From NCBI GenBank assembly GCA_017616015.1, contig JAFZYY010000030.1:311706-373993 (forward strand): DNA of 62,288 bases, written 5' to 3'. The translations under genes were made by a program, and so were the position numbers. The notes beneath the pieces are model-generated. The model was not told where the DNA came from. It worked only from the letters and a program-made list of their open reading frames with translations, and searched no databases. The stretch comes from Alphaproteobacteria bacterium (GTDB lineage: Bacteria > Pseudomonadota > Alphaproteobacteria > CAAGCB01 > CAG-977). Shown here one piece after another: positions 45,651 to 58,697 of this stretch (position 1 is the first letter of the stretch; every line of letters starts with the position of its first letter).

Positions 45651-46292
45651 ATGAAGCCTGCCGACATTAAAGAGTTTTTCGCGCGCCTGAAAAAAGCGAA
45701 TCCCGATCCGAAATGCGAATTGGATTATCAGTCGCCGTACACGCTTCTGGTCGCGATAGTTTTGTCCGCGCAGACGACGGATAAGAACGTCAACAAAGCG
45801 ACGCCGGCTTTGTTTAAATCCGCTTCCACGCCCGCACAGATGGTCGCTCTGGGCGAAGAAAAACTGAAAGGCTATATCCGCTCCATAGGTCTGTTCAACG
45901 GCAAAGCGAAAAACATTATCGCGCTTTCCAAAGATCTGGTCGAAAAATACGACGGGGAAATTCCTCAAAACGTCGACGAACTGCAAAAACTGGCAGGGGT
46001 GGGGCGTAAGACGGCAAACGTGTTTTTAAACACGATGTACGGCGCGCCGACATTCGGCGTTGACACGCATGTTTTGCGTTTGGGGAACCGGATAGGCCTT
46101 GCTCCCGGCAAGACGCCTCTGGAAGTCGAAAAAGCGCTGGCAAAGGCGGTGACGGGCGTTATTCCCGACGAGGATTTGAAATACGTTTCCCACTGGCTGG
46201 TTTTGCACGGCCGTTATATCTGCACGGCGAAAAAGCCGGCCTGCGACACATGCCCGATGGCGGATCTGTGCCCTAAAATCGGGGTGAAATAG
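45651..46292 (+). CDS. nth: Endonuclease III
   Basis: This 213-residue DNA glycosylase/AP lyase removes oxidised pyrimidines. The helix-hairpin-helix GVGRKTANVF carries the catalytic Lys (near 120), and the catalytic Asp is in GVDTHVLRL. The C-terminal 4Fe-4S site is complete with spacing C-x6-C-x2-C-x5-C. It lies 4 bp after the fructosamine kinase gene and is convergent with the next gene. Confidence 0.96.
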   Translation: MKPADIKEFFARLKKANPDPKCELDYQSPYTLLVAIVLSAQTTDKNVNKATPALFKSASTPAQMVALGEEKLKGYIRSIGLFNGKAKNIIALSKDLVEKYDGEIPQNVDELQKLAGVGRKTANVFLNTMYGAPTFGVDTHVLRLGNRIGLAPGKTPLEVEKALAKAVTGVIPDEDLKYVSHWLVLHGRYICTAKKPACDTCPMADLCPKIGVK

Positions 46293-46299
46293 CTTTTGC

Positions 46300-47676
46300 T
46301 TATCTGGAATAACGAAGGTCTGCCAACCGGCGGGCGTTTGCCGCTTTAGCGGTGACGTTTGCCATATAGCTTTTCCGCATAAGGTCGTTCGGACTCTTCC
46401 GCACTTTTTTCGGCGTGGGCGCCTCTTTTTCCGACGGATCTTTTTTGAACAGGATAGCTCTTGTCCGTGTCCGGTGAGCTTCTTTGGTTCGTTTCAGCTC
46501 TGAAGAAGATTTCGCAAGGGAATCTTTCAGCTTCTTTTTCGTTTCAGCCATGGTTTGGGCGTTTCTGTCTTCCGGTTTGGGCATGTGGAGGACGGCTGCT
46601 TTGGCCAAATCCATTTGCGACATATTGATGGCGGCGCCGTTTTTGAAGTAATTGGTTTGCAATTCGTTTCGTACAACTTCCAAAGCCATGACTTTAGATT
46701 CGTAGATGCCTTTGTAATACGTTTCGCGTTTCTTATATTCTTCTTGGAATTCTTTAGGTAAGTCTTTTATATCAAGTTTTTCGCGGGCTTTAGCCTGTTT
46801 CTTGTTGGGTTTTTCCTGACTTTTATCCGCTTTCAGTCCGTACATATCGGCAAACTGTTTGATCCTTTGCTGATTTTTGTTTAAAGGTTTTCCTTCTGCG
46901 ATGGCTTTTTCTATATCTTTTAATTGACGCCTGTATTGATCGAAGAATTCGTCTTTGATTTCGTCTTGGCAACGTTTCAAACGGTTCTCCAGGTATTCTT
47001 TGTTCAGGCGTTTTTGTTCTTCGACGGCCTGATCCAAAGAAGCGACGGACGTAATCGGATAATCCGGCAAAGGCAATCTGTAGGGATTGGGTTTAACATA
47101 ATCCCAATAGTTCGGCGAAAGCGGAGAAGAAGAGGAGGAGAAGGAAGAGGAAGAGGAAGACTTCTTTTCAGAAGAATGCGAAGACGAAAGACGAACCTTT
47201 TTGACTTCTTTGGGTTTCAAAGGAACGTTGCATTGTTTGCATGCTCTCATCAACATTTTTTTCAATTCGGGGGGTAAGCCCATGGCGACGGCGTCAAAGC
47301 CCATGGCGCGGACGGCTTCGACCAAAGCCATTAATTGTTGCAGAGAGGGTTTTTTCTTGGACGCCATAGCGATGAACAAATCGCGTTTATCGCCGACATC
47401 ATTGAATTTTCCGCCGTCGGACATCTGGACTTCAATGGATTTGTTGCCTTTTTCGTTTTTGACGATTTTAACGGACGAGATGCGGGCTTTTCTGCGGAAC
47501 CGCGGGTAGTAAGTTTGATGATGCTGGACTTTTTCCCACGCTTTTTTCAAACGGCGCAAGTCCGGCTGCAAAAAATTGCTGTCCTTTTCCTCTTTTTTTG
47601 GCGAAGCTTCCTGCTTTTTTTCCGTATTTTTTTGTTTTTTTTCAGGTGCTTTGAGCTGTTCTTGATTCTTTTCCAT
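46300..47676 (-). CDS. Charged coiled-coil protein, possible diverged LPD7-like domain
   Basis: This 458-residue protein is very rich in Lys, Glu and Ser, with a Ser tract near 170-185. At about 60-155 is a folded segment, with VEAVRAMGFDAVAMGLP and then KKMLMRACKQCNVPL. Its strand-helix pattern resembles the LPD7-like domain of the two large proteins upstream (GW/GF-x-x-V, then K-x-x-M), but the match is weak. Long helical charged regions follow. There is no signal peptide. It is preceded by the shared TTGTCA promoter module, so it belongs to the same putative regulon. Function is unknown. Confidence 0.55.
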   Translation of the reverse strand: MEKNQEQLKAPEKKQKNTEKKQEASPKKEEKDSNFLQPDLRRLKKAWEKVQHHQTYYPRFRRKARISSVKIVKNEKGNKSIEVQMSDGGKFNDVGDKRDLFIAMASKKKPSLQQLMALVEAVRAMGFDAVAMGLPPELKKMLMRACKQCNVPLKPKEVKKVRLSSSHSSEKKSSSSSSFSSSSSPLSPNYWDYVKPNPYRLPLPDYPITSVASLDQAVEEQKRLNKEYLENRLKRCQDEIKDEFFDQYRRQLKDIEKAIAEGKPLNKNQQRIKQFADMYGLKADKSQEKPNKKQAKAREKLDIKDLPKEFQEEYKKRETYYKGIYESKVMALEVVRNELQTNYFKNGAAINMSQMDLAKAAVLHMPKPEDRNAQTMAETKKKLKDSLAKSSSELKRTKEAHRTRTRAILFKKDPSEKEAPTPKKVRKSPNDLMRKSYMANVTAKAANARRLADLRYSR

Positions 47677-47704
47677 GGCCGTACCCTCATACTACATTAA
47701 GGAC

Positions 47705-47742
47705 ATGATAGCACACTTTTTTTGGAAAGAGTATGACAAAAA
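47705..47742 (-). promoter_or_regulatory. Shared promoter module, copy 1
   Basis: On the minus strand TTTTTGTCA is followed by an A-rich stretch and GTGTGC-TATCAT. The TTGTCA half-site (47734-47739) is 23 bp from the -10-like box (47705-47710), exactly as in the other three copies. It lies about 30 bp upstream of the 458-residue protein start. Confidence 0.65.
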
Positions 47743-47801
47743 TTTAAAAAGAGTCGTTTTGTATTAAAAGCATTTTTTCATTATTTCCAGAGAAATTTGA
47801 C

Positions 47802-47838
47802 AAAAAAACGCCCGATTTTCATCGGGCGTTTTTTTTGT
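47802..47838. terminator. Terminator of the 2157-residue gene
   Basis: AACGCCCGAT and ATCGGGCGTT pair around a TTTC loop, with long T runs on both strands. On the minus strand the T run continues into TTTTTTTGTCAAA, a partial repeat of the promoter-module start. Confidence 0.88.
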
Positions 47839-47847
47839 TCAGATAGG

Positions 47848-50800
47848 TTATTTAGGGTTAAAAGCTCCATGTTGATTAATTAATGCCCGCCGCGTTATCT
47901 CGTCTTGAGATGGCGCTTTGTATGGAGTAAAAGCAGGGGCACTTCGTGAGCTCTGGCTCTGATATGGATTGGTTGCGTTTATTTCCGCTGTTCTATTTTG
48001 AAGCTCTCCTAAACGCTGCAGTTGTGCTGCATAACCGTTTCCTTCTGCCTTTCCGCCTCCCTGAATTGCAAGCACCATTTCTCCTTGTTTGCTCGCGAGG
48101 GTTTGAAGGTCTTCTTTCGTCAGAAGTCCTTTCGTTTGAGCAAGAGCTAGCTGTTTCATCATAAAGTTATTAACGAAGCCCGCTGCTGTTGTAGCGTCAA
48201 TGCCTTGTGATTTTATTAAATCTCCTTGGAGCAAATCCATTTGCGTCTGAAGCTGATCGGCATAATTATCCATATCCGAGTTCTTTGCAAACTCCAATAT
48301 TGCCGTGGCAAGCGCTTTTTCAGTTTCAGTCAACGGTCTGGCTGTACCGTCCGGATTCTGCATTGTTTGACCCTCTATCAAAGCCTGCTTGGTTTCATTA
48401 GGAACATTTACTTCTTCTTTCGGTTTACCGTTAGCGAGTTCTTGTTCGTATTTTCTTACATTCTGAGCTTCAGCTTCTGTAAATATAGTTGTTCCGTCTT
48501 TTCTCTTTCTGCTGAGAATATCGTCAAGGTATTTATCTACAGTTTTATAGCGATCTTGGAGAGAACCATAAGGATCCATATCGTTTACATCGTTCAAATC
48601 TATCGCTTCGCTTCGCTTTTCAGCGTAGTATCTTTCAAGATTTTGCCTACGTTTAAGATACGTCTCTCTGTTTTTCTCGCTCGGATCATGGGCTAACATT
48701 AATGCTGCTTGAGCAAAAGCATATTCTACCGTAGCCATAGACTGCATTGGTGGGAACATTTCCCTTAAATCTTTATTCGGACTGTAGTTTACAGGAGTAT
48801 TCTTCACAACCTGTTCTGTCTGCTGGCTATTTGCTTCTTTTGTATCCAAATCTTGACTTACGGTTCCTATACGCTGAATTTCTTCAGATTCGAAATAATT
48901 TTCGAAATCTTTGTTAGAAACATAGCTTATATAAGAATGATGCAAAGGCAACAATGTCGGCGAAGTCTTTCCACCAAGATCAATAGTTCCGACTTCTATC
49001 ATAATATTCTTATAAGCTTCCAATTTCTTTGGATCTGTCGGATTGCTCTTGTCTAACGCAATGTCAACCATAGCATCAACAAGCTCTGCTACCTTAGGAT
49101 TATCTGCTATATCTTCGGCGAACAGCTCTGCTTTAAGTCTTGCTTTTATATCATTAGCACGTTTTTCTTCAGGGCTGAGTTGATCGTCATCATGGCTATA
49201 ATCGTCATCGTTTTCTTTTAGCGATTTTATTTCTATCTTCACATCTTTTGTTTCGATTTTTTCTTGAGCTTGTTTTAACGCCTTATTTATCGGTTCTAAG
49301 ACAGCAGCTTGTGCGTCATCAATGAATTTGTTCTTTTTTAAGAACTCAGTCATTCCGGCCGCAGCATCGCCATAATTATCAGGGTAAGCTTCTTTTATGG
49401 CGTTTTCATAAGCGGCCTTTAAATCTGCTGCTTTATTATCGTCTTTATTAATGGCGAGAGCATACATAGCCAAGAGAGCTTTTTCTTGTTTTGCGTCCAA
49501 TTTGCCCTCGTTTTCCGCTTTGAAAGCTTCGACAATTTTTTGCTCTGTTGTCTTTTCTTCGACTTCTATTTCTACTTCTTCCTTTCCGGCTTTCAGAGCT
49601 TTATATTGTTCAGCATTATACCCGTCATAGGCAGCGACGTCGCTTCTGGTTTCTGCCGGAAGCTTTTCGTAAGCCGTATTGACTTCCTTTATCTTATCTT
49701 TATCTGTTTGCGGTTTCAGCTCTTCAGCTTTTGCCTTCAATTCTTCGATGCTTATTCCAGCTTGCTGTAAATCAGCTTCTATTGCATCCTGGTTCTTGAT
49801 TTCCAAGCCCTGAGCTAACATCGCGATATACATATTCCGTTTGAAATCAAGCGAAGCTGCCGGATCGATTTTGGCGTCTCTCCAACCTTTTTCCAATCCC
49901 AAACGAACCATGGTCATAGTGTCTTCCAATGTCGTTTGTTTGTCTTTTTTGATCTGGATATTAATTCTGTTGGCAGAATTGACTAACGTCGCTTCGGTAC
50001 TCAATTCCATGCTGACCACTTGCGGAGAAGCGGAAACTTCCTTGATGGAACCCAGATTGCATTTTGCAAACGAAGTCTTGGCGTTAGGATCATTCGTATG
50101 CGCGTCTTTATATTCGTAATCCAAGAATTTGGTTTTCCAGGCCACGCTTCTTAATTCATCTGCCAATGTGCCTTCCACCTGCGGTGCAGGAGTGGTGGTA
50201 GTGGTGGTAGTGGTAGTGGTGGTCTCAATCGTGGTCTCAGCCTCTACATCCTTACTGGGCTTAATTTTATCGCCCTCAGTATTAACCGTAGCTTCACTCA
50301 TAATGTGATCGGTTTTAATCGTGCTCGGCACTTTCAAATCAAAACCGGATTCCTTGGCTGTTTTTGCTATGAATTCGTTCAAGGCTTTCAAATACGAGGA
50401 ATTTTTCAGCCCGGCTTCTTCTGAAGCGGTCTTTAAGAATTCATTGACCTTGTCAAGAGCTTCTTCCGGTGTTTTGGCTTTACCGTCATCTAAGTACTTC
50501 TGTGCCAAATTCTGTATGCCGTCTGTTACAGCTCTGACTTCTCTGCTGTTATCAATGTATCTGGGCAGGAACCAGGATCCTTCAGGTCCGTTCGCATGCT
50601 CAGCCATTGCTTTAAAGAGATCGATTTCTTCCGCTGACGCTTCGTTGCTTCTCAGCTGTTCCAGATACTTCGTCACCGGCGAATCCAAATATGTTTTGAA
50701 TCCTTCAAGTTGATTTGGAGTCAGCTGATCGTTGCCTTTCGCGTCGCTTATTAACCAATTGACATAAAGCTCCGCATTTTTCGCTGCGTCAGTAGCGTTT

Positions 50801-53800
50801 GAACCTTCGTTTACATACGCTTTAATCAGATCGGCTTTTCTGTCTTCGAATTCTCCGCGACCAAATTCGGTCGCTTCAGTATATGCCATATGCATTGCGG
50901 TTTTCAGGCGCAACTGAGCAAGTTCCAAAGCGGTCAACGTATTAGGATCTAATTCCGCCGATGACTGGTTTTGCAGTACCGGACTGTTGAACATCGCTTC
51001 CTGCGCTTCGCGGCCGGGTATTCCTGCTAAGGCTATATCCGGAGCAGTCAGGGCTTCTACGCGATTGCCCGTATTTGCCTGATCATTCCTTTTATTCCGC
51101 AATCCTGTGTAAGCGCGTGACTCGTCATAATTGACAGTATTGTCCTTATTGTAGGAAGTCATACTGTAATTTTTAACCGTAGGAGCATGGATCGGGTCTA
51201 AGCTGTATCCATTATCTAATGCTTTCTTTCCTAAATTTAGTATATAAGTTCTTAAATTTAGTATATAATCTTGAAACTCAGGATTATTTTTCTTTTTTTC
51301 GTCTAAGTTATCATAGAAATCGCGCACATAGAAATACGATACGCGGAAAGCATCTTCTTCCGACATATTTAGCGAATTACGATAATGGCTTTGAAGGTTC
51401 TTTAATGCCTCGTCAAGGTTATCTTGAGAAAACTCGTTTAACGCTGCTTGAACAGCTTGTTCTTTTGCGCCTTTAGGGTTATAAATCCGATTATTTTCGC
51501 TATTTTTAAGCAACCCTATTCTTGTTTCGCCGCTTTCTTCATTTGTGAATTCTTGAAGTAAGGGACCCGTGTACGTTGGATCGCTACGTTTCTGCGAGAA
51601 TTCAACAGTTATAGACGTGCCGTCGTCATTGAACCGGGTTTCTTTTCTTACTCTTAAATCTTCAGCCAGGAAACGGTCGTCAATAGAAATTTCCCGAATG
51701 AACGTCGGTTTGCCATCTTCATAATCTGTGGTGCGGCAGTATTTATTTCTGCCTTCTTCTTCGTTTTTGAAAACCTTATCCGCAAAAGCCTTAGCGTTGT
51801 CGGGAGCCTTGGCCATCTCGGCTAATTTAAGGGCTAATGCGGCATCTGTATTTTGGGTGTCGCCTAAACTTTCTCTATACGCTTTATATTCTGCAGTGTT
51901 TTCCAGATATTCTGTATAGGCTTGTTCATTGAATTCATAGGTCTTTTGAGGCTTACCGTCTTTGTAAGTCGTCAGCTGGTATTTCCCGTCTTCTTTCTTG
52001 ACGCTGGTTACCGCTTTCGCTGGATCTTTGCCGTCATACTCTGTTATCGTTGTCGCGTTTCCGTTTCTTTCGGTGCATCTTATCGGGTTGTTGTCCTTAT
52101 AAGTCGTCGTCGTCGATTTATATACATTAGACGCATCACCGTTTCTGTAATAATCTTCCATGATAGTGACGGAACCATCTTCATTCTGTTTTCTGGAGAT
52201 AGCATGATCAGCGTATTCTTTACCCTTGCTCGGATCATAGAAGATAACAGTATGAGGTTCGGCTTTTTGCTGTTGTGTTACGGTTTCGGGTATCGTGCCA
52301 TCGTATTCGCACCGTCTGGAAACATTACCGTTTGCGTCATAATATGTTCCTGTCCAGCGCGAACCGTTGTTCATTGTCACATAAGACTTTTCGCCACGCA
52401 TGGTATACGTGGTTGTCGTCCAATTGCCGACAGTTACTCCTTCTCTTGGAGTATATTCTACTTTGGGGTTCGGATTTTCTTTTGTTCCTTCGATTCTCTT
52501 GTTGTCCGCGCCATACACCGTTGTTGTTGTTGTTTCCGGAGTCTTTCCGTCTTCTAAGTACGTCGTGACAACTTCTGTTTTTTTGTCGCCCTCAAACGTG
52601 ATTTCCGTTTGTGCAACTAATTTTCCATGTTTGTCGTATTCGTTTCTGATAGTTGATGTCGGTTTTCCGTTTTCATCATATTTTGTTGTTTCAAGCGGTT
52701 TGTCATTTTGCAATACGACACTTCCAATGACGGCGTGAGTTGTCGGATCCGTGAATATTTTCGTTTCTGTCGTTGTTAAGCCATCATTAGTAACTTCTCT
52801 ATGGGTTTCTACAGCACAGCCTTTAAAATCTTTGTCGTCAAGATTTCCATCAAAAGCTCTGCAGGTTATCTTCTCAAAATCATTTTCTTTGCTGTCATAA
52901 AAGGTTACGGTCCGTTTCCCGCCTTCATTCTTGTCATAGAAAACGCTCTTGGTCGCCTTACCATCAGGATGATAGGCCGTATCTTGGACTGTATTTACTT
53001 CGCTTTTCAAATATTTTTTTGTGTTCGGCTCATAATGTAATCTTCTTTCCGAAGTGACTGTATTTATATGCCGGCCGTTATCACGATCATAGCTATAATG
53101 TGTGGCTACACCCCGAATGTCAGGACTGGTCACATCAAGCGTATGATCCGTATTAGTCGTAACATATTGGTCTGTAACATTCCCGTTTCCATCGGTCTTA
53201 GTCCAAGTGGAAGTTATTAACTGTCCGTTCTCATCATATTTATCTACCCAGCTAAGCGTTTCTCCGTTTTCTATTTTTGTACGGGTGATCGTTGAGCTGC
53301 CGTCCCTGTTGTAATCACGTTTTTCGTAATAATGATTGAGTTCGTCAGTGAAAGAAGTCAGTCTTCCTTCTTTGTCAAAAAGAGCTTCTTTAAGTATAGC
53401 CCCGTTCTTGTCCGTTAAAGTCAAAGATTTGGGTTTTCCGGTGTTTTTACGATATTTGTTTGTAACCGTCCAACCCGGTTCGTCCTTGTCTACATATGTT
53501 TCCCGTACAATGGCTTCTTCTAGAACACCGTCAAGATCTCTGTCTTGGTCAAAAGAACGTCCCTCAAATCGGTAGTTTTTTCCAAATCCGGCTGTCTTTG
53601 TGAAATCATAAACGCCTCCTTTTAACAACTGAGCAACAGTCTTTGCGTCAGTCTTTTCCGGAAGAGGAGGAAGAGGTTCAATAAATGTGGATTGGTAAGC
53701 CGCATATACGGCATCAAAATTGTTTGTATCGTTTATGTTTATATCTTGTCCGGGGGCGGTCTCCAAGCCAAATTGGTTCACGTTTTCATTTTCCTTTTGG

Positions 53801-54321
53801 ACAGAGGTAATCTCAGGCTGTTCATTGTCCACTACTCGAGTCTCTGCCGCATCGTCTAATTCAACATCGCCATTCGTCAGCGAGCGTGTGTAGTCGGCCA
53901 AATCTCCGTCTTTAATCGATCCTAAATGCTGTGCTAAAACCGCTCCGAATTCTCCTCCAACATCTTCTTGTGCGGCAGAGATCAATGAATTGTAATAAGT
54001 TTCCAGCTGTGAAAGGTCAGCTCCTGATGCATTATATCGTTCTTTTAATGCTTCCGCAGCTTTTATGTATACTAAGGCTTTCTTTGCTTTCTTTTCCTTA
54101 TCCTCGTCATTTTCGCAGGATTTTAATAATGCGTTATAAATCGTTTGATCTTTGTCTTTTATTTCTATGCTCAACGGGATTGTATCTGCCACTGTGGTGC
54201 CGGTGCCGGGTATAAATTCTTTTCCCGGTTCCAGATTAGGCGGCAATTTGTCTTTTTCTTGTATAACCGCATTATAGTTATCGCCGTTTTTCGAAAATAC
54301 GCATAAAAATTCTTCAGCCAT
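47848..54321 (-). CDS. Giant YD-repeat and LPD7-like protein
   Basis: 2157 residues, AAGGGGG before the ATG. Order: a unique N-terminus (1-240); about 240-800 YD/RHS-like beta repeats (units such as YDENGQL, YDENGKPTS, YDKHGKLV, YYDANGNV); a helical region (about 800-1350); a pure Thr tract (near 1365-1377); then a region paralogous to the 681-residue protein (about 1385-1560) with an LPD7-like core, EDTMTMVRLGLEKGW ... DFKRNMYIAMLAQGL (about 1465-1507). Long charged helices follow, then a Pro-rich end (APAFTPYKAPSQDE...FNPK). No signal peptide, RHS core or toxin domain is visible. It may be exported or linked to conjugation; that is inference. Confidence 0.7.
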   Translation of the reverse strand: MAEEFLCVFSKNGDNYNAVIQEKDKLPPNLEPGKEFIPGTGTTVADTIPLSIEIKDKDQTIYNALLKSCENDEDKEKKAKKALVYIKAAEALKERYNASGADLSQLETYYNSLISAAQEDVGGEFGAVLAQHLGSIKDGDLADYTRSLTNGDVELDDAAETRVVDNEQPEITSVQKENENVNQFGLETAPGQDININDTNNFDAVYAAYQSTFIEPLPPLPEKTDAKTVAQLLKGGVYDFTKTAGFGKNYRFEGRSFDQDRDLDGVLEEAIVRETYVDKDEPGWTVTNKYRKNTGKPKSLTLTDKNGAILKEALFDKEGRLTSFTDELNHYYEKRDYNRDGSSTITRTKIENGETLSWVDKYDENGQLITSTWTKTDGNGNVTDQYVTTNTDHTLDVTSPDIRGVATHYSYDRDNGRHINTVTSERRLHYEPNTKKYLKSEVNTVQDTAYHPDGKATKSVFYDKNEGGKRTVTFYDSKENDFEKITCRAFDGNLDDKDFKGCAVETHREVTNDGLTTTETKIFTDPTTHAVIGSVVLQNDKPLETTKYDENGKPTSTIRNEYDKHGKLVAQTEITFEGDKKTEVVTTYLEDGKTPETTTTTVYGADNKRIEGTKENPNPKVEYTPREGVTVGNWTTTTYTMRGEKSYVTMNNGSRWTGTYYDANGNVSRRCEYDGTIPETVTQQQKAEPHTVIFYDPSKGKEYADHAISRKQNEDGSVTIMEDYYRNGDASNVYKSTTTTYKDNNPIRCTERNGNATTITEYDGKDPAKAVTSVKKEDGKYQLTTYKDGKPQKTYEFNEQAYTEYLENTAEYKAYRESLGDTQNTDAALALKLAEMAKAPDNAKAFADKVFKNEEEGRNKYCRTTDYEDGKPTFIREISIDDRFLAEDLRVRKETRFNDDGTSITVEFSQKRSDPTYTGPLLQEFTNEESGETRIGLLKNSENNRIYNPKGAKEQAVQAALNEFSQDNLDEALKNLQSHYRNSLNMSEEDAFRVSYFYVRDFYDNLDEKKKNNPEFQDYILNLRTYILNLGKKALDNGYSLDPIHAPTVKNYSMTSYNKDNTVNYDESRAYTGLRNKRNDQANTGNRVEALTAPDIALAGIPGREAQEAMFNSPVLQNQSSAELDPNTLTALELAQLRLKTAMHMAYTEATEFGRGEFEDRKADLIKAYVNEGSNATDAAKNAELYVNWLISDAKGNDQLTPNQLEGFKTYLDSPVTKYLEQLRSNEASAEEIDLFKAMAEHANGPEGSWFLPRYIDNSREVRAVTDGIQNLAQKYLDDGKAKTPEEALDKVNEFLKTASEEAGLKNSSYLKALNEFIAKTAKESGFDLKVPSTIKTDHIMSEATVNTEGDKIKPSKDVEAETTIETTTTTTTTTTTPAPQVEGTLADELRSVAWKTKFLDYEYKDAHTNDPNAKTSFAKCNLGSIKEVSASPQVVSMELSTEATLVNSANRINIQIKKDKQTTLEDTMTMVRLGLEKGWRDAKIDPAASLDFKRNMYIAMLAQGLEIKNQDAIEADLQQAGISIEELKAKAEELKPQTDKDKIKEVNTAYEKLPAETRSDVAAYDGYNAEQYKALKAGKEEVEIEVEEKTTEQKIVEAFKAENEGKLDAKQEKALLAMYALAINKDDNKAADLKAAYENAIKEAYPDNYGDAAAGMTEFLKKNKFIDDAQAAVLEPINKALKQAQEKIETKDVKIEIKSLKENDDDYSHDDDQLSPEEKRANDIKARLKAELFAEDIADNPKVAELVDAMVDIALDKSNPTDPKKLEAYKNIMIEVGTIDLGGKTSPTLLPLHHSYISYVSNKDFENYFESEEIQRIGTVSQDLDTKEANSQQTEQVVKNTPVNYSPNKDLREMFPPMQSMATVEYAFAQAALMLAHDPSEKNRETYLKRRQNLERYYAEKRSEAIDLNDVNDMDPYGSLQDRYKTVDKYLDDILSRKRKDGTTIFTEAEAQNVRKYEQELANGKPKEEVNVPNETKQALIEGQTMQNPDGTARPLTETEKALATAILEFAKNSDMDNYADQLQTQMDLLQGDLIKSQGIDATTAAGFVNNFMMKQLALAQTKGLLTKEDLQTLASKQGEMVLAIQGGGKAEGNGYAAQLQRLGELQNRTAEINATNPYQSQSSRSAPAFTPYKAPSQDEITRRALINQHGAFNPK
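50190..50223. repeat. Trinucleotide repeat encoding a Thr tract
   Basis: Repeated GGT/AGT units on the plus strand (ACC/ACT on the coding strand) encode a run of about 12 threonines in the linker before the LPD7-like region. It could vary in length by slippage without breaking the frame. Confidence 0.75.
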
Positions 54322-54357
54322 GAGAGTTTCCCCCTTAATAAATTACTAATTAATGCC

Positions 54358-54395
54358 ATACTAACACACTTTTTTTAGAAAAAGTATGACAAAAA
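54358..54395 (-). promoter_or_regulatory. Shared promoter module, copy 2
   Basis: Minus strand: TTGTCA (54387-54392), 23 bp, then TAGTAT (54358-54363) preceded by GTGTGT, then GGCATTAATT. It lies about 35 bp upstream of the 2157-residue protein start and is nearly identical to copy 4. Confidence 0.72.
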
Positions 54396-54456
54396 TTTGA
54401 AAAATGATTTTTCCGGTGTTTATTTGGTTTTTCCCACGGTTTCTTGGAAAAATAGA

Positions 54457-54490
54457 CAAAAAAAACACCCGGGGGTTGTCCCCGGGTGTT
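54457..54490 (-). terminator. Terminator of the 198-residue gene
   Basis: CACCCGGGG and CCCCGGGTG form a very stable stem, followed on the minus strand by eight T running into TTTTGTC. Confidence 0.88.
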
Positions 54491-54510
54491 TCGGAAAAAA
54501 TCAAGCGGAT

Positions 54511-55107
54511 TTAAGCTCTGCCGCCGTTGTTTTGCATTCTTGTTACGTCTATCTGTGGTCTGGTGTTGTCCGGCGTCGATTTTTGCTGTCCGGGTTGGTT
54601 CATCGCCATTTGCGCGTTTCTGTCGTTGCCCTGAGACTGCAACAGAGCTGCCGTCGCTCCGCCGTTCGGGTTTGAATTTTCAGCTTCTTTTTTCTTGTTT
54701 ATTTCCTGCTGTATTTTAAGTTCCTGCCACTGCTTGAATATTTCTTCTCCTTTTCCGTCACCTTCTTTTTCGTGTGCCTTGTAACGGATCAGCAGTGATT
54801 TTTCGACCATATCGTTTATTTCTGCCGGGGAAAGCCCTGTTCCGCCTTCTTGTAATATCTGTATTCTTTGAGTTTCAGGATCAATCGTATAGCCGATTCG
54901 CCCGCCGTTATAGAGAATCGCGTTCATGTTGTTAGGCAATTCAACAACCGTCATATCTTTGGTTTCGATGGTCAAAAGGCCGTCATTTTTGGGTTGTGTG
55001 ATTTGCCAGTTTTTCGTCGGGTCGTTCGTTGTTACTTCAATGTTTCTTCGTGTTGCCTGAATGGCAGAGGTGTAATTTTCAACTGTTTGTTCGTTATCGT
55101 TAGACAT
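54511..55107 (-). CDS. Small protein of the LPD7-like locus, Gln/Asn-rich tail
   Basis: 198 residues from the ATG at 55107 (AGGAGGG before it). The first 90 residues look beta-rich (DMTVVELPNNMNAILYNGG, GYTIDPETQRIQILQ), then a helix (about 95-150), then a low-complexity tail rich in Gln, Asn, Gly and Met. There is no signal peptide and no family I know. It lies between the two large paralogues, with the same type of promoter module and its own terminator. The partial gene at the right edge has a similar tail. Confidence 0.6.
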   Translation of the reverse strand: MSNDNEQTVENYTSAIQATRRNIEVTTNDPTKNWQITQPKNDGLLTIETKDMTVVELPNNMNAILYNGGRIGYTIDPETQRIQILQEGGTGLSPAEINDMVEKSLLIRYKAHEKEGDGKGEEIFKQWQELKIQQEINKKKEAENSNPNGGATAALLQSQGNDRNAQMAMNQPGQQKSTPDNTRPQIDVTRMQNNGGRA

Positions 55108-55141
55108 AAGTATATCCCTCCTGTTTAAACAATATAATTCT

Positions 55142-55179
55142 ATAATAACACGTCCGTTTAAAAAAAGATACGACAAAAA
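55142..55179 (-). promoter_or_regulatory. Shared promoter module, copy 3
   Basis: Minus strand: TTGTCG (55171-55176), 23 bp, then TATTAT (55142-55147) preceded by CGTGT. This copy is the most diverged in the spacer yet keeps the exact distance. Its first half is fused to the T run of the preceding terminator. Confidence 0.65.
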
Positions 55180-55206
55180 AAACGCCCGATTCGAAAATCG
55201 GGCGTT
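55174..55206 (-). terminator. Terminator of the 681-residue gene
   Basis: AACGCCCGATT and AATCGGGCGTT form the stem, followed on the minus strand by eight T. The T run overlaps the start of the next promoter module. Confidence 0.87.
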
Positions 55207-55274
55207 TTACTGAAACGGTCGGACGGCTATTTACCGCCATTTTCTCTTTTGTTTAAAATTGCGCAACCAAACGC

Positions 55275-57320
55275 TTAGCGTGTGTTGCTATTAGCGAGTT
55301 GTGCGGTCAGTTTCGGATCAAATTTAGCGTTCTTTAACTCTTCGGATGTAGGAGCCGGCCTTGGAGCATAAGGAGCCCGACCCATTAATCGATCCATCAT
55401 AGCCGGTTTCTTAACATTAGGCGTTTCCGTTCTTTCCGGATCTGTTTCTTTCTGTTCTCCCGCTAACGTGCTCTGCAAGCTTTGTTTTTTGGGAGCTTTG
55501 GCTTTTTCAGCATTTTCCTCTGCTTTTTCCTGGATTTGCTGATAGAGCTTGTCGTCTACCTTTACAAACGCTTTTTTAGGTTGCTTGCCCGGCAAAACTT
55601 CCCGACGGGCTTCGTCCAAACCTTCAAAACGCTTATCCATGCTTTCTGTGCGGGCAATATCCTTCGTCGGTTTTAATTTTTCGGCCTTTTCTTGAAGTTC
55701 TTTAAGTATCTCCGAGGTGAAACCGAGTTCTCCGGGATTGGCAACATCCAAACCCTGAGCCAACAGCGAAATATACATGTTTCTCTTGAAGGAGGGCGAG
55801 GCTTTCGGATCGATTTTGACTGTTTTCCAGCCTTTTTCTTTTGCCAAACGAACCACTGTCATGGTGTCTTTCATGTCGGCTTTCCCTTCATGGGTCAAAT
55901 TAATGCCTTTCGGGGAATTGATTATCGAGGAGCCTTTGGTTTCCAAATCCATTTTGAACGAGGGCGGTACGCTTTGGTAAGACTTCATTGTTTCCGCTTT
56001 GCATCTGGCAAACAAGAATTCTTCTTCCGGATTTTCCACCTCGTGTTCAAACGACATGTATTTGGTTTTCCATGCCAGACGCCACATTTCGTCTTTCAGA
56101 CCGCCGGTATGTTCTTCCGTGTCAACGGGGGGCGTGTCGACGGGGGGCTCTTCAATCCCTTCGGTTCCGCGGACATCGCTGACCATGTGATCATCACGGC
56201 TCAAAAGCTTAAAGTTGTCGTCAACGTCCCGAATTCTGTTGTAAATATCACGGTACGAATACCGCAACCGTTTCATGACAAATCTGCGCGTGTCGTTCGG
56301 ATCGTTCTGGTCGGGGCTTTTTTCGGCGACAGCTCTGTCGACGGCGGCTCTGAAGGCCTTTCTGATAGCTATCTTTGCCTCTGTCGGCTCGATGCCTCTT
56401 TTAATGCAATCCTGCATGAACGGATCCAAGGCGCCGAACATCATATCCTGACGGTCTTCCATGCTTTCTCCCGGCGTCATCGCATGGTGATAAGCGGCTT
56501 CTTCGATGGCTTTTAATAAATCCGCGTTCATCGTTTTGTCGCCGTCCTGCGATTTATTGTTAAACGCGTCATAATATCCTACAAGAGTATTGATCTCTTT
56601 GTGGATTTTGCCGTCTAACGTCATTAATTTGTCCGTATAGCCTTCTGCCTTTGCGTCTTTTATGCTTTTCATGCCAAGCTCGGCGCGGGCGCCCTGCATA
56701 ATGGCGTCGTATTCTTTGCCTATTTCTTCCGCGGTTTTTCCGGCTTCCAGACCTTCTTTAATAAATTTTTGCATTGCCGGGAAGACGGTTTGAGTCCGAT
56801 TCTTATAATCGTTTTTTCCGTTTTTATAGCCGATTAATGCTTCTTTTAATTCTTCCGCTGCTGTTTTTTTCGGCTCTTCTTCCTGTGCGGCGGGGTCTCC
56901 TTCTTTTCCGGCGGTCGGTTCATTTAAGGGAAGCTCCGTCGTTAAAGACTTTTTTCCGCCTTCATAGGTTGTTTTGGATCTTTTAATGACTTTATCCCCT
57001 TGTGTTATTGACATTTGAGACAGTTTTAAATTGCCTTCATCGTCGTAGATGTAACTTTCATTAAAAGCCTGGCCGGATTCTTCGTCAAAGTTATAACGCG
57101 TGGCTTCTTTTCCGTCCTGATAGGTAACACGGTCCAGAATCGTTTCACCCTTGGTTCGTTCATAAAGAGCCGTCTGACCTTTGTCGTCATAAACAACTCT
57201 GAGGCGATTTTCCCCGTTTTCCGTAACCTCGGATAAAAGACGATCGCCCTCAAAGAGGCGGGTATGTTTTTGTCCCTGATCGTCTGTGAAAGTTTCTTCA
57301 CGTTTGTCGTTTTCAGCCAT
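55275..57320 (-). CDS. YD-repeat and LPD7-like protein, paralogue of the giant protein
   Basis: 681 residues, GAGGGGA before the ATG. About 8-130 carries short beta repeats with YDDKGQT and YDDEGNL units, like the giant protein. About 150-385 is helical. A PPVDTPPVDT linker lies near 393, and 405-580 is clearly paralogous to the giant protein (LAWKTKY, EDTM-like DTMTVVRLAKEKGW, SFKRNMYISLLAQGL). The end is Pro-rich (RAPYAPRPAPTSEE...FDPK), also shared. No signal peptide or enzyme motif is visible. It looks like a short relative that has lost most of the repeats. Confidence 0.68.
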   Translation of the reverse strand: MAENDKREETFTDDQGQKHTRLFEGDRLLSEVTENGENRLRVVYDDKGQTALYERTKGETILDRVTYQDGKEATRYNFDEESGQAFNESYIYDDEGNLKLSQMSITQGDKVIKRSKTTYEGGKKSLTTELPLNEPTAGKEGDPAAQEEEPKKTAAEELKEALIGYKNGKNDYKNRTQTVFPAMQKFIKEGLEAGKTAEEIGKEYDAIMQGARAELGMKSIKDAKAEGYTDKLMTLDGKIHKEINTLVGYYDAFNNKSQDGDKTMNADLLKAIEEAAYHHAMTPGESMEDRQDMMFGALDPFMQDCIKRGIEPTEAKIAIRKAFRAAVDRAVAEKSPDQNDPNDTRRFVMKRLRYSYRDIYNRIRDVDDNFKLLSRDDHMVSDVRGTEGIEEPPVDTPPVDTEEHTGGLKDEMWRLAWKTKYMSFEHEVENPEEEFLFARCKAETMKSYQSVPPSFKMDLETKGSSIINSPKGINLTHEGKADMKDTMTVVRLAKEKGWKTVKIDPKASPSFKRNMYISLLAQGLDVANPGELGFTSEILKELQEKAEKLKPTKDIARTESMDKRFEGLDEARREVLPGKQPKKAFVKVDDKLYQQIQEKAEENAEKAKAPKKQSLQSTLAGEQKETDPERTETPNVKKPAMMDRLMGRAPYAPRPAPTSEELKNAKFDPKLTAQLANSNTR

Positions 57321-57355
57321 TGAAGTTCCCCTCTGTTAAAGTTCCAATTAATGCC

Positions 57356-57393
57356 ATACTAACACACTTTTTTTTGAAAAGATATGACAAAAA
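57356..57393 (-). promoter_or_regulatory. Shared promoter module, copy 4
   Basis: Minus strand: TTGTCA (57385-57390), 23 bp, then TAGTAT (57356-57361) preceded by GTGTGT, then GGCATTAATTGG. It matches copy 2 almost base for base through this stretch and lies about 35 bp upstream of the 681-residue protein start. Confidence 0.72.
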
Positions 57394-57451
57394 AGTGAAA
57401 AAAGTTTTTTTTGCTTTGGCAAAGGTTTTTCCATTATTTTTTAGAAAAGTT

Positions 57452-57487
57452 GACAAAAAAGCCGCGCTTGAAGGAAACGCGGCTTTT
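57452..57487 (-). terminator. Terminator of gapA-pgk
   Basis: AAAAGCCGCG and CGCGGCTTTT pair across an 11-nt loop, with six T after it on the minus strand, 20 bp past the pgk stop. Confidence 0.85.
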
Positions 57488-57506: not shown

Positions 57507-58697
57507 TTATTTTTCCAGAACCTTTACGCCCGGCAGGATTTTGCCTTCCATCCATTCGAGGAAAGCGCCGCCCGCGGCGGACAAGTAGGACAGTTTTTCG
57601 GCAACGCCCGCTTTCTTTAAAGCGGAAACCGTGTCGCCGCCGCCGCCGATGGATTTCAGGCCTTTCGCCGTCAAAGCGGCGACTTCTTCGGCAATCGCGA
57701 AAGTCGCTTTGTTAAACGGCTTGATTTCGAACGCGCCGACAGGGCCGTTCCAAATCACGGTCTTGCATTCAGCCAGTTTCTTGTTGATTTCGGCAACGGA
57801 TTTCGGCCCGATGTCCAAAATCATCATGTCGGCCGGAACGGCGTTCACGTCAACCGTTTTGTTTTCGGCGTTTTCGGCGAATTCCTTCGCGACGACGACG
57901 TCAACCGGCAGAATGATTTCGCATTTCGCGGCTTCGGCTTTCTTCATGATTTCGCGGGCGGTATCGGCCATTTCTTTTTCGCAGAGCGAATTGCCGACAT
58001 CGATTCCTTTGGCAAACAGGAACGTGTTCGCCATGCCGCCGCCGATGATCAGCTTGTCGACTTTAGCGACCAGATTGCCCAACAGATCCAACTTTGTGGA
58101 CACTTTCGCGCCGCCGACGATCGCGGCGACCGGACGGACGGGATTGCCCAGAGCGGCATCAAGCGCTTCCAATTCCGCCTGCATCAGCAGACCGGCGGCA
58201 TTCGGTTTCAGCTTCGCCATGCCTTCTGTGGAAGCGTGAGCGCGGTGAGCGCAGGAGAACGCGTCATTGACGTAAATATCGACGTCCTTCGCCAGTTTTG
58301 CGGCGAAATCGGCGTCGTTCTTTTCTTCTTCGGCATAGAAACGTAAGTTTTCCAGCATGATGACGTCGCCGTTCTTCATCGCTTTGATCGCGGCTTCGAC
58401 TTTGGCGCCGATGCAGTCGTCAACAAAAACGACTTTCTGCCCCAGAGCCTTTTCGACGTCGGCAACAATCTGTCCCAGCGACATTTCGGGGACGACCTGT
58501 CCTTTCGGACGGCCGAAGTGGGAGGCGATGATGACTTTCGCGCCTTTGTCCGTCAGAGCTTTGACGGTCGGGACAAAGCGGTCGATACGGGTGGTGTCGG
58601 TGACTTTGCCGTCTTTAAAAGGGACGTTCAAATCGGCGCGCACGAAAACGACTTTTCCGGCGGCGTCCAGATCTTTGATTGTATTGAATTTAGCCAT
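57507..58697 (-). CDS. pgk: Phosphoglycerate kinase
   Basis: 396 residues from the ATG at 58697 (AAGGA before it). This glycolytic enzyme makes ATP from 1,3-bisphosphoglycerate. [19 protein letters not shown], the [10 protein letters not shown] segment and the late [12 protein letters not shown] nucleotide loop are all present. It is downstream of gapA across a strong intercistronic hairpin. Confidence 0.96.

Follow-up and report, generated by a model that had tools for sequence, protein, structure and literature searches.

In the 62,288-nucleotide window of alphaproteobacterial DNA analysed here (the whole stretch presented above), four consecutive minus-strand genes, which we call g4, g3, g2 and g1, each begin downstream of the same promoter module. 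We consider it fairly probable (about 0.62) that this module is a conserved extended -10 promoter of the form TRTGn-TAnnnT with upstream elements, probably read by σ70, and that it forms a cassette with a terminator that was multiplied in one species. The original prediction, made from the letters of the window, of a real promoter module shared by these genes and built on an extended -10 element was borne out, and the four genes are probably expressed from one kind of promoter.

Anatomy of the promoter module

In all four genes, TTGTCR stands exactly 23 bp 5' of a -10-like TAnnnT box on the minus strand, and the -10 box is preceded by TGT or TGC, as had been claimed. The g4 module (57356-57411; 5' to 3' on the minus strand, TTTTGTCATATCTTTTCAAAAAAAAGTGTGTTAGTAT) carries TTGTCA at 57390-57385 and the -10 box TAGTAT at 57361-57356, together with an UP-like A/T element at ~57411-57390, an A-tract and GTGTGT between TTGTCA and the -10 box, and a predicted start at ~57349. 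The g2 module (54358-54413; TTTTGTCATACTTTTTCTAAAAAAAGTGTGTTAGTAT, same strand and direction) has TTGTCA at 54392-54387, TAGTAT at 54363-54358 and a predicted start at ~54351, and the g1 module (47705-47760; TTTTGTCATACTCTTTCCAAAAAAAGTGTGCTATCAT) has TTGTCA at 47739-47734, TATCAT at 47710-47705 and a predicted start at ~47698. The g3 module (55142-55180; TTTTGTCGTATCTTTTTTTAAACGGACGTGTTATTAT) has TTGTCG at 55176-55171 and TATTAT at 55147-55142, and keeps the 23-bp distance despite a diverged spacer. It shares its T-run with the preceding terminator and is therefore without the upstream A/T element and the distal box described below. The copies of g2 and g4 match each other through GTGTGTTAGTATGGCATTAATT, as originally noted, and the stretch TTGTCATA stands 5' of the module A-tract. 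The -10 box had been described as TATNAT, a form that is found in g1 and g3 and not in g2 and g4, both of which have TAGTAT.

To define the conserved positions, 11 module copies from 8 genomes were aligned. All 11 copies keep TTTGTC, the TG dinucleotide and the first, second and last bases (T, A and T) of TAnnnT, and the base after TG is free, with C, T, A and G all occurring. Position -16 is A or G, and TRTG occupies -17 to -14 in 10 of the 11 copies, g3 having CGTG. TRTG at -17 to -14 is a published extended -10 consensus, and long spacers are likelier at promoters of the TGn type (PMC2613000). The column identity reaches 0.92-0.98 in the upstream block and 0.93 at the -10 end, compared with 0.57-0.70 in the preceding 50 bp. 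Sequence conservation at both ends of the module is clear.

The upstream block, TTTTTTCAAAATTTTGTC, fits the UP consensus of E. coli at a shared offset in 7 of 8 copies, with single copies ranging from 10 to 15 of 15 positions. The summed UP score is 98, compared with 85.8 in shuffles, and none of 500 shuffles reached it. In this respect the module may resemble UP element promoters, with an A/T block that fits AAAWWTWTTTTnnAAAA at ~-62 to -41, a position ~3 bp upstream of that in the E. coli consensus; it differs from them in that several copies match no better than shuffles. Between this block and the -10 box, an A run lies at ~-25 to -19, at a distance of 6 bp from the -10 box. In E. coli, A/T tracts located at -17 to -23 are able to activate -10 elements without a -35 element, and the AT-tract dependent promoters so defined (Warman et al. 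2020, PMC7229825) share with the module an A run ~6 bp before the -10 box and the lack of a proper -35. Unlike these promoters, the module is intergenic and conserved across species rather than a product of happenstance, and its tract lies at ~-25 to -19, theirs at -23 to -17. The intrinsic curvature of the modules, calculated with a wedge model, did not exceed that of dinucleotide shuffles.

No TTGACA-like box was found 16-18 bp before TAnnnT, and a scan with this spacing called none of the four window modules. The hexamer 17 bp 5' of TAnnnT in the window is TACTTT, TACTCT or TATCTT. De novo statistics on 267 upstream regions, made with simple gene calls, were too noisy to yield a -35/-10 consensus; we therefore took the tRNA promoters as the reference for this genome. 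Read by eye, they have a TTGnCA-like -35 at ~17 bp, including TTGTCA for one tRNA-Gln. By this norm the module TTGTCA at 23 bp is out of register for an extended -10 promoter, as its distance from TAnnnT exceeds that of a normal -35 by ~5-7 bp. More likely, it is part of an upstream contact for the α subunit or for an activator, or else a -35 that was kept to serve an overlapping TRTGnT hexamer 18 bp away.

The module thus agrees with extended -10 promoters of the σ70 class (TGn or TRTGn, the "-16 region") in that TRTGn abuts TAnnnT, n and R vary, and an in-register -35 at 16-18 bp is missing. It departs from them in having, 23 bp upstream of the -10, an additional TTTTGTCATA box that is strictly conserved. 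The best descriptions of TRTG come from Gram-positive promoters. Several further points weigh against our reading. The UP match is not above shuffles for g1, g4, G004 and G008 taken singly, such matches come easily in AT-rich DNA, and the orthologues are not independent. Several -10 boxes agree with the consensus at just 4 of 6 positions (TAGTAT), and the start positions are predicted from sequence. The conservation of TTTGTC also exceeds what an UP element would require and so allows for a specific protein. From these features we infer that σ70 is used, where transcription starts and what the upstream box may do; the position, conservation and copy number of the module are direct observations.

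Orthologous copies and the constant spacing

Among the relatives, the module occurs once, after pgk, in five genomes of the same genus (G001, G003, G004, G005 and G006) and in G008 of another genus, always with 23 bp. In G010, of another genus, the orthologous module after pgk has a spacing of 22 bp. The genomes of the genus contain no second strong copy, each having one strong match compared with four in the window genome. No module was present in the diverged upstream regions of G002, G011 and G009, nor among the scanned pgk-bearing loci of Alphaproteobacteria outside the family. One candidate with 24 bp, G002:C9:1099, lies across a transporter gene start on the opposite strand and was judged to be a chance match.

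In contigs long enough to tell, relatives carry a gene that we call B directly 3' of another, A, in the same direction and with a gap of 9-68 bp. We suggest that, in the ancestral state, the module would drive a two-gene unit, A (with an LPD7 domain) followed by B, which this family of gut Alphaproteobacteria carries 3' of pgk. In the window species, the terminator and promoter would have been copied together, giving each of four genes in a row a copy of its own to start from. The cassette now stands before genes that one promoter serves in the relatives, and also before an orphan.

The constant distance had been taken to imply selection for spacing, and this conclusion found no support as stated. 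The window copies arose from a single ancestral cassette by duplication and are not independent, so the identical 23 bp is mostly inherited. As a control for insertions and deletions, we used the stretch between the distal box and the module TTGTC, which is 63-67 bp long, with five lengths among nine copies. From this control, ~1-2 length changes would be expected in 23 bp by a rough estimate, and one was seen (G010). As the control itself varies only within 63-67 bp, a constant 23 bp is not improbable, and a constraint on spacing is not clear in the way that the sequence conservation is.

Specificity of the module in the genome

The motif TTGTCR-N23-TATNAT, as originally proposed, has 2 matches in the window, compared with 0.08 expected. 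In its loose form, with the spacing opened to N10..40, it has 105 matches in the 2.09-Mb genome, ~3.4 per spacing, and is thus by itself not specific. The flanked form TTTGTCRTA-N8..38-TAKNAT has 9 matches in 2.09 Mb, compared with 4 for a reversed control pattern, and TTTGTCRTA-N21-TAKNAT has exactly four in the whole genome, the modules of g1 to g4. A 60-column module profile scores 58, 55, 53 and 30 bits at the cluster sites and at most 16.8 bits elsewhere in the genome; three of its ten training rows and the g3 row are the cluster's own sites, and this gap therefore arises partly by construction. These scans indicate that the module is real and yet local to the cluster. The module is no genome-wide regulon. 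Neither the genome motif and profile scans nor the related genomes revealed several unlinked genes that share such a -35/-10 pair. For some scans, the genome was sampled as 20 stretches of 20 kb.

The weak profile matches elsewhere (at most 16.8 bits) were set aside; all but one were partial A/T matches. The exception, at C22:78262, is a different extended -10 promoter that is conserved in G004. There, at G000:C22:78262-78297 (L065), and at G004:C26:92833 (L168), we noticed an A-tract followed by an extended -10 promoter TATGCTACnnT in two species, and the gene behind it begins MTTTVLNA. Searches of the region for Rfam families and for plasmid copies of the g2 upstream region found none.

Alternative explanations

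A dedicated activator at TTTTGTCATA is possible, and on the sequence evidence we regard it as the foremost, though still doubtful, rival. A protein of, for example, the OmpR/PhoB type, which binds 11-bp direct repeats, would occupy TTTTTCAAA-TT-TTTGTCATA, and its contact with RNA polymerase would fix the distance; the TTTTTCAAAATTTTGTCATA block would be the candidate protein-contact stretch. TTTTTCAAA and TTTGTCATA are conserved across genera and stand 11 bp apart in most copies, though not in g3, TTTGTC is invariant in all 11 copies, and there is a second TTTTTTGTCAA box 63-67 bp upstream. Five proteins of this genome have an OmpR/PhoB-type DNA-binding domain, none tied to the module. A possible likeness to PhoB/OmpR-activated promoters lies in this direct repeat and in a half site close to the -35 region, similar to TGTCATA, which we take to resemble a Pho-box half site. 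At Pho promoters the half site ends roughly one helical turn closer to the gene than in the module, and the scans found no other such site in the window genome. With no other strong genome site (none above 16.8 bits) and one per related genome, there is no regulon for such an activator. The upstream repeat also reads TTTTTAAA in g1 and G001, g3 has none, and G002 and G011 lost the module yet retain the genes. A narrower proposal, which we find improbable, is that TTTTGTCATA and the distal TTTTTTGTCAA box ~65 bp upstream are the operator of an undescribed locus-specific regulator of LPD7-family genes, which would couple them to the end of the gap-pgk transcript. If so, the cassette would have spread to four genes to keep them under that regulator.

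Slightly less credible still is that TTGTCA is an ordinary -35 paired with the overlapping TRTGnT, 18 bp away, as its true -10; the box at 23 bp would then be incidental or a second, weaker -10. The 18-bp hexamer is TATGAT or TATGCT in G003, G001 and G008, G010 has TATGTT at 17 bp, and TTGTCA appears as a -35 at a tRNA gene of the window genome. Where -16 is A (G001, G003, G008 and G010), the resulting TATGnT is a reasonable canonical -10 and the downstream box has no A at its fifth base; where -16 is G (all window copies, G004, G005 and G006), the downstream box has this A. The association between -16 and this fifth base (-8 of the module; window positions 57365 and 57357 in g4) is complete in the 11 copies, as if one of two overlapping -10 elements were kept. 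It rests on few independent changes and is a lead only; in a pgk tree with several weak branches, G005 groups with G001 and the others stand elsewhere. Against this explanation, the window hexamers TGTGTT, TGTGCT or CGTGTT do not have the critical A at the second position, and the downstream box keeps the three defined bases of TAnnnT in every species.

An alternative sigma factor recognising TTGTC-N23-TAnnnT, with the four genes as its regulon, would account for the exact spacing and the nearly exclusive occurrence in the cluster; we nevertheless consider it very improbable. We found just four sigma-70-family genes in the genome, and their sizes, judged from frame length, would fit one housekeeping, one RpoH-like and two ECF-like factors. 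The module motif is unlike RpoH and ECF promoters, and the variation within TGnTAnnnT follows the rules of housekeeping extended -10 promoters. The unusual sigma factor that had been suggested thus finds no support, since the core fits a TRTGn extended -10 element with an A-tract read by the housekeeping sigma factor, and a new sigma factor is not needed to explain the module.

Terminators and genes of the cluster

A terminator-like hairpin with a T-run stands 5' of every module. All four lie on the minus strand: the pgk terminator (57452-57486) includes the hairpin, the T-run and a distal TTTTTTGTCAA box 66 bp 5' of the g4 TTGTCA; the g4 terminator hairpin (55179-55208) is joined directly to the g3 module; the g3 terminator (54455-54492) has a distal TTTTTTGTC box 67 bp 5' of the g2 TTGTCA; and the g2 terminator (47799-47829) has a TTTTTTGTCAA box 64 bp 5' of the g1 TTGTCA. 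The claim that each gene has its own terminator therefore stands for the hairpins before the modules and fails for g1, which ends 7 bp from the convergent nth with none evident. The distal boxes proper lie at 57452-57460, 54455-54463 and 47799-47807, with orthologous positions in loci L006-L009, L024 and L029; a second TTTTTTGTC(AA) is found in the terminator tail of nine copies, 63-67 bp 5' of the module TTGTC. From its sequence, copy 3 looks like the product of a deletion between the two TTTTTTGTC boxes present in copies 1, 2 and 4. The terminator stems of the g1 and g3 cassettes have AACGCCCGAT..ATCGGGCGTT in common. In 462 kb of the genome, four of five terminator-like sites followed by GTC fall in the cluster. 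G002 and G011, both without the module, retain the distal TTTTTTGTCAA box.

The cluster lies on the minus strand between pgk (ending at 57507) and nth (45651-46292). In the window genome, g4 and g2 are of type A, g1 is of type B and g3 is an orphan. The product of g4 (55275-57320, 681 aa) has an LPD7-like domain, and by position the gene is the orthologue of the family-wide gene A after pgk; no phage relatives of g4 were found. The orphan g3 (54511-55107, 198 aa), for which no homologue was found in 11 other family genomes searched, sits under the same promoter type as its neighbours. The product of g2 (47848-54321, 2157 aa) is a second LPD7-like protein, rich in repeat-like stretches, and has one region that is paralogous to the g4 product, with 37% identity over 180 aa. 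The product of g1 (46300-47676, 458 aa) is the orthologue of B, and its profile is related to the LPD7 region of A. Gene A of several relatives scores over the cut-off for the LPD7 domain (Pfam PF18821), and hhalign relates the profiles of A and B to each other (probability 95, E 3e-8). A-type proteins vary greatly in length across species, from 456 to 2157 aa. On the far side of gap-pgk, relatives have a conserved protein of ~790 aa with a zinc-peptidase-like HELGHATD motif (L006 2126-4516; L007 1656-4013; L008 7989-10358).

Implications

The observation of a shared module is correct and merits recording. It also carries a warning, as equal spacing in tandem copies may reflect descent and is by itself no evidence for a new sigma factor. 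The cluster offers a clear natural case in which a copied terminator-promoter cassette turns a two-gene unit into separately started genes, with the orthologous single copies as the reference.

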